NCBI GenBank assembly: GCA_011192195.1 | Contig: DUEH01000007.1 | Span: forward strand, 1-33,314 | Source: Chloroflexota bacterium | Lineage (GTDB): Bacteria; Chloroflexota; Anaerolineae; 4572-78 | DNA length: 33,314 nt | Reading direction: 5' to 3' | Shown: positions 6,426 through 13,705 of the stretch, in pieces | How the letters are laid out: each line of letters starts with the position of its first letter | Position numbering within the stretch: position 1 is the stretch's first letter | Program-made: the position numbers and the translations under genes | The notes under the pieces: generated by a model | What the model was told of the DNA's origin: nothing | What the model saw: the letters and a program-made list of their open reading frames with translations, nothing else | Database searches by the model: none

Positions 6426-6731
6426 ATGAAACGACAGAATGAACAAGCCGCTGTTTTTTTGCTTGGCGCGGCCATTGGCTTGATATTAGCGTTACTTTTT
6501 GCCCCGCAAAGCGGCGAAGATACCAGACAATTGATCAAAGACCGCAGCAGTGAGCTAAAAGACAAAGCCATTGCCGATAAAGACCATTTTACGCAGCGTA
6601 TTCAAAGCGCTACCGATGAATGGATCACCCAATTACGCGCCGTCACCGATGATCTGGTAGCGCAAGGCCGCCTCAACGCCGATGACGCTCGCGCGCAGAT
6701 AAACGGGCTGATAGCTAAAATGCGGAGTTGA
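6426..6731 (+). CDS. YtxH-domain small membrane protein
   Basis: This 101-residue protein starts at ATG 6426 with GGAGG at 6413-6417; a TTG at 6411 in frame is less likely. One N-terminal helix (AAVFLLGAAIGLILALLFAP) is followed by the YtxH hallmark APQSGEDTRQLIKDRSSELK and a charged, probably helical tail to residue 101. YtxH proteins are small membrane-anchored stress or envelope proteins of unknown biochemical role. It stands alone, between the PKD fragment and a strong hairpin. Confidence 0.85.
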   Translation: MKRQNEQAAVFLLGAAIGLILALLFAPQSGEDTRQLIKDRSSELKDKAIADKDHFTQRIQSATDEWITQLRAVTDDLVAQGRLNADDARAQINGLIAKMRS

Positions 6732-6787
6732 GTTGCAGAAGTAATATCAGGCAAACCCTAATCTTTTGTTGCACCCGACTGAACAGA

Positions 6788-6846
6788 AAAAGCCTCAACT
6801 TCCTCGTTCCCGAACAGAGTTTGGGAACGAGGAAGCTGAGGCTTTT
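6788..6846. terminator. Strong bidirectional hairpin terminator between convergent genes
   Basis: AAAAGCCTCAACTTCC... (6788-6811) pairs with a right arm at 6823-6846 over 24 bp with one G-T wobble and an 11-base loop. The stem starts with an A-run on one side and ends with TTTT on the other, as expected for termination on both strands. It lies between the YtxH gene (+) and the NRPS/UPF0182 gene (-). The inner CGTTCCC/GGGAACG part also looks like a dispersed palindromic repeat. Confidence 0.75.
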
Positions 6847-6857
6847 CTTCTGATTTC

Positions 6858-6998
6858 GTAACTACTAAGGCTCAGGTGCGACGCACTTAACAAATTGCTT
6901 TTTCTAGCAAATAACTGTCCAATACAGTCAAAATTTGCACTTGAAAACCGTTTCGTGAAGTGCGTTGCACCTGTTTCCGCTTGTGGCTGAGTAGTTAC
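6858..6998. mobile_element. 141-bp IS66-like MITE with 8-bp target-site duplication
   Basis: The ends are GTAACTACT (6858-6866) and AGTAGTTAC (6990-6998), perfect inverted repeats. An inner pair AGGTGCGACGCACTT (6874-6888) and AAGTGCGTTGCACCT (6958-6972) pairs with one mismatch. The direct repeat CTGATTTC flanks it exactly (6850-6857 and 6999-7006). GTAA ends with 8-bp duplications are the hallmark of the IS66 family, so this is probably a non-autonomous derivative. There is no transposase frame inside. Confidence 0.82.
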
Positions 6999-7012
6999 CT
7001 GATTTCTTTCTT

Positions 7013-13705
<6,693 letters not shown>

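Follow-up and report, generated by a model that had tools for sequence, protein, structure and literature searches.

The 33,314 nucleotides analysed here (contig DUEH01000007.1 of the Chloroflexota bacterium assembly GCA_011192195.1; this whole stretch is hereafter called the window) contain, at positions 6858-6998, a 141-bp noncoding element with the outward appearance of a MITE. Such an element raises the questions of whether it belongs to a mobile family, which transposase moved it and where its interior came from. An initial annotation, made from the window alone, had described it as a recently moved MITE of the IS66 family and had anticipated a full-length relative, with tnpABC genes and the same ends, elsewhere in the genome. 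As discussed below, some of these proposals hold well, while the expected partner appears to be of another kind.

The element and its surroundings

Direct reading of the sequence recovered every position given in the initial annotation (6850-7006, including the 141-bp length, the ends, the inner pair and the duplication) to the base. The element starts and finishes with perfect 9-bp inverted ends, GTAACTACT (6858-6866) and AGTAGTTAC (6990-6998), which form part of imperfect 14-bp terminal inverted repeats: GTAACTACTAAGGC on the plus strand at 6858-6871 and, read inward on the minus strand, GTAACTACTCAGCC at 6985-6998. The 8-bp target duplication CTGATTTC is exact and abuts both borders (6850-6857 and 6999-7006). 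Between the terminal repeats lies an inner core (6874-6972, plus strand) made of a spacer and two 15-bp arms that pair with one mismatch, AGGTGCGACGCACTT at 6874-6888 on the plus strand and AAGTGCGTTGCACCT at 6958-6972 (minus strand, AGGTGCAACGCACTT). The element is therefore short, has inverted ends and carries no transposase gene. A scan of the window for perfect 9-bp inverted pairs, 60-400 bp apart and abutted by an exact 8-bp direct repeat, yielded a single instance, against none in 20 mononucleotide shuffles. The element strand is also predicted to fold strongly, at -53.2 kcal/mol versus a shuffle mean of -30.6 (z = -6.4). No match to the element was found in plasmid and phage collections.

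Regarding a possible role as RNA, an Rfam search of positions 6500-7300 returned sub-threshold microRNA models over a neighbouring hairpin and none over the MITE, and these were taken as chance. A regulatory role for the core was also considered, but two-sided changes were observed in only 3 of 22 predicted pairs, the clearest being a single split between families, and these are too few to claim it.

The element had been placed between a terminator hairpin and the stop codon of a UPF0182 gene, and this setting is as described, with two qualifications. A hairpin with 28-bp arms does lie beside the element (6788-6846) and a minus-strand ORF does stop at 7013, six bases beyond the right duplication. 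A simple terminator scan, however, found no terminator at this hairpin, whose T run lies within the stem, and it is at most a putative terminator. The ORF, in turn, does not encode UPF0182 alone: positions 7013-13705 (minus strand) form a single frame of 2230 aa in which an NRPS module (TubC_N docking, condensation, adenylation and carrier) precedes a complete UPF0182 membrane protein, either as a true fusion or as an effect of assembly.

Copies in the genome and their target duplications

The end search and copy count that the initial annotation had suggested were carried out in the host assembly (3.23 Mb, 301 contigs, 74% complete). They revealed 24 other near-complete copies, that is, 25 including the window element, with one cut by a contig end. 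The copies fall into two subfamilies that differ at 20 diagnostic sites, A (141 bp, which includes the window element) and B (140 bp), and most show 0-6 differences from the consensus of their own subfamily, a similarity that supports the proposed recent movement. A simple check of reading frames placed no copy inside an ORF of at least 120 aa. More diverged relatives are also present, such as L027 (73% identity) and L029, of 142 bp, which is flanked by the exact 8-bp duplication AATAGGTG.

Of the 25 copies, seven are flanked by an exact 8-bp duplication of their own (L001, L005, L008 and L021-L024) and L025 by one matching at 7 of 8 positions, while more than half of the copies have none of their own. 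Additionally, seven exact 8-bp matches link two different copies, the left flank of the one being repeated to the right of the other; L003 (left) and L006 (right), for instance, share AAACCAGG, and L004 (left) is paired in this way with L002 (right) and L010 (left) with L004 (right). At 181 control offsets within these flanks, the corresponding totals were 2 and 2, against 7 self and 7 crosswise duplications at the borders. The identification as a MITE, which the initial annotation would have given up if there were no other copies or none with duplications, is thus sustained by dispersed copies with duplications at their borders and almost none at control offsets, with the caveat that the copies lacking their own duplication are likely explained by assembly error.

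One might instead take the crosswise duplications as the trace of MITE copies that recombined in the living genome, since such recombination would leave precisely this kind of sharing between loci. We consider this unlikely. Of the 18 N bases in copy L010, 17 coincide with positions among the 20 diagnostic sites, so that L010 is a blend of the two subfamilies in which the assembly merged copies. Moreover, copies with private variants retain their own duplications, whereas those that lack a duplication are mostly near-identical ones. Given the crosswise duplications and the blended copy, the missing self-duplications are probably wrong assembly joins at repeat copies, and MITE copies of this kind should be regarded as liable to be misjoined in metagenome assemblies.

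The ends and the IS66 family

A search for IS66 transposases (PF03050) gave no match in the host assembly, 74% complete, or in five genomes belonging to its family, and a clade-specific transposase profile had no match in the host genome or its family. Consequently, neither the full IS66 relative expected in this genome nor any transposase of the ISBst12 group was found there. Single GTAACTAC ends in the host genome were considered as ends of a full insertion sequence and rejected, as no convincing long partner was found. One GTAACTACTCAGGC end, at L031 (~3007; G000:C30 near 11000), stands alone between hairpin arms CAATACCTTCGCCA and TGGCGAAGGTATTG, without a convincing partner end.

PF03050 is present in 8 of 25 genomes of the order. 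Single-ORF IS66 transposases that are 37-73% identical to that of genome G015 (same order), and classified as IS66 by both NCBIfam and Pfam, are flanked by ends that agree with those of the MITE at 10-14 of 14 positions. The clade spans related bacteria and other phyla: complete autonomous elements were found in genome G340 and, with the G015 transposase as query, in Chloroflexota, Gammaproteobacteria, Paenibacillus and others. They measure ~1.5-1.7 kb, and the 14-bp ends of most are perfect. Exact 8-bp duplications flank seven autonomous loci (L138, L141, L142, L151-L153 and L158), while several autonomous elements with matching ends have no exact duplication. For instance, genome G340 has two complete copies of 1549 bp with ends GTGACTATTCAGGC and duplications TCAATTTG and GTATTTTC, the same two insertions as in the Caldilineaceae MAG ACE_CHL8 (L138 and L141), a coincidence that would point to Anaerolineae as the class of the window. 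Like the MITE, L134, L135, L138/L141, L145 and L146 have inverted 14-bp ends, perfect in their case, that match those of the MITE at 11-14 positions (those of L145 and L146 are identical to GTAACTACTCAGCC), and L138/L141 share with it the exact 8-bp duplications; unlike it, they measure ~1.55-1.57 kb, carry a transposase gene and have unrelated interiors. Contig ends in G183, G238 and G272 carry what remains of IS66 transposase genes, which continue directly into GTAACTACTCAGGC or GTAACTACTCAGCC.

A described member of the ISBst12 group of the IS66 family, ISDge4, has ends GTGACTACTCAGCA and GTAACTGCTCAGCA with an 8-bp direct repeat and has been seen to transpose (PMC12898284). These ends are close to the terminal repeats of the window element, and the direct repeat has the same length; by contrast, ISDge4 is autonomous and encodes a transposase of 449 aa, while the MITE has 141 noncoding bp and only the ends in common with it.

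More distant IS66 elements of the order and class (23-27% identity) have ends that mostly match the MITE at 6-8 of 14 positions, and end similarity therefore appears to track the transposase clade to a large extent. As one outsider at 27% identity, L051, matches at 11 of 14, the end motif does not seem to be strictly confined to the clade. Regarding the tnpABC-type partner initially proposed, the only element of tnpABC size whose ends were read, L047 of the same order (2356 bp; assigned by size, with tnpA and tnpB unchecked), has ends GTAAGCGCCCTATG that match at only 6 of 14 positions. We conclude from the compared ends, together with the 8-bp duplications observed at MITE copies and autonomous loci alike, that the ends belong to the single-ORF (ISBst12-type) branch. 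The association of GTAA termini and 8-bp duplications with IS66 is accordingly well founded, autonomous IS66 elements with near-identical 14-bp ends and 8-bp duplications being found in other genomes, while a tnpABC-type partner is not what these ends suggest. Beyond the ends, the MITE bears no likeness to any IS66 element examined.

The same kind of end is frequent in the class. The 14-mer GTAACTACTCAGGC occurs in 50 of 396 genomes, with a reversed control near 0, and reaches 605 matches in G231, 93 in G389 and 61 in G136; the examples retrieved are mostly short and flanked by 8-bp duplications, and their interiors differ between genomes. In G231 (3.4 Mb, same class; L061-L063), the ends belong mostly to elements of 111-112 bp with exact 8-bp duplications. 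This genome is the richest in ends and its MITE density is unusual, yet a search for an IS66 transposase gave none. Long GTAACTACTCAG-like end pairs in G231 and G136 (735-1326 bp) were examined as possible full elements and rejected, as the intervening frames encode no transposase; at least the 1044-bp case consists of two neighbouring MITEs around a host gene.

The inner core

The interior of the element has a distribution of its own. The inner arm AGGTGCRACGCACTT has 115 matches with up to one mismatch in the host genome (control, 0). Apart from the GTAAC elements, it occurs in another MITE family, which is 164 bp long and has ends CAGGGCTGTTCAGTTCT; the few copies of that family that show a duplication have one of 6-10 bp. 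The spacer of diverged GTAAC copies is identical to that of the 164-bp family at 52-56 of 67 bases, the shuffle maximum being 36, and the window element aligns to this family with a score of 57 (shuffle maximum, 33). A common core in the GTAAC MITE and in a family with entirely different ends is thereby shown. The CAGGGCTGTTCAGTTCT ends have 68 matches in the host genome (e.g., L188-L201) and also bracket elements of 131 and 250 bp.

The AGGTGCRACGCACTT arm is present as well in two elements with ends AGGGCTTTCTCAAAGTC (L203 and L205), where the match is clear in the arms only. Conversely, the GTAAC ends of the host genome bracket at least two unrelated interiors, at C112:29422-29542, without its own duplication, and at C236 near 56333, with a duplication matching at 7 of 8 positions. 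As the core is shared across different ends and the same ends surround unrelated interiors, ends and interiors are decoupled. Capture, nested insertion and template switching may each account for the shared core.

The arms belong to a REP-like palindromic repeat that is widespread in the class; it is short and of high copy number, and may lie between genes. The palindrome, GGTGCRACGCACTT, was observed in 94 of the 396 class genomes, in many families and with up to 137 matches per genome. It occurs as inverted pairs with loops of 2-5 bp (e.g., L208-L215), often as a lone hairpin of ~32-36 bp. A literature search for it returned no relevant paper, with two incidental matches. The repeat resembles REP-type palindromes (PMC2817692) in being short, abundant, possibly intergenic and often arranged as inverted pairs; the arms differ in that they were matched to no known REP family, lie 70 bp apart as a pair in this element and are carried inside a MITE.

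Origin and mobilisation

With considerable confidence, we regard the element as a non-autonomous MITE that was most likely moved by a single-ORF ISBst12-type IS66 transposase encoded elsewhere. Such an enzyme, acting in trans, would recognise the 14-bp ends GTAACTACTMAGSC, and insertion by it would generate the 8-bp target duplication. A mover outside the IS66 family, with similar ends and 8-bp duplications, might be invoked because no IS66 transposase was found in the host assembly, in its family or in G231 with its 605 ends. Transposase genes are, however, often lost or unassembled, and the agreement with a whole IS66 clade in both 14 end bases and duplication length, together with the transposase remnants of G183, G238 and G272 that run into these very ends, makes a non-IS66 mover highly improbable.

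Regarding the interior, it is a separate module, in which two palindromic repeats common in the class frame a spacer of ~70 bp. As this repeat and its spacer are shared with a MITE with different ends, the genome probably contained the repeat first, and the IS66-type ends would have come to surround it. The textbook alternative, in which MITEs usually originate by internal deletion, would make the element a simple derivative of one formerly resident full-length IS66 and its interior leftover sequence of that element; the ends are indeed of IS66 type, and the parent may sit in the missing quarter of the genome. We nevertheless find this origin doubtful, given that the core is homologous, well beyond the shuffle maximum, to that of a family with unrelated ends, that the arm repeat occurs alone in many genomes of the class and that none of the IS66 elements examined has these arms beside its ends.

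Significance

In the part of a review on bacterial MITEs available for searching, these are described as noncoding, hairpin-forming elements of 50-500 bp with inverted ends and direct repeats (PMC10969869). The present family differs from this general picture in that the same core recurs in families whose ends are unrelated and a single set of ends surrounds unrelated cores; neither the term IS66 nor such an exchange of ends and cores appears in the text searched. Nor did the papers searched yield a MITE linked to the ISBst12 branch of IS66. As the link suggested here rests on the 14-bp ends, the 8-bp duplications and the class-wide distribution, this family offers a concrete substrate for asking what minimal sequence an IS66 transposase needs.

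Additionally, because ends and cores pair many-to-many, the old question of how MITEs arise becomes testable: under internal deletion of one parent, the interiors should match that parent, while capture predicts the pattern seen here, with one core inside both IS66-type GTAAC ends and CAGGGCTGTTCAG ends and IS66-type ends around unrelated cores across genomes. On balance, we lean towards the view that the ends and interiors of these MITEs are exchangeable modules, in which case the widespread palindrome would spread by borrowing several transposases. This modular pairing is the part of the finding that might surprise specialists.
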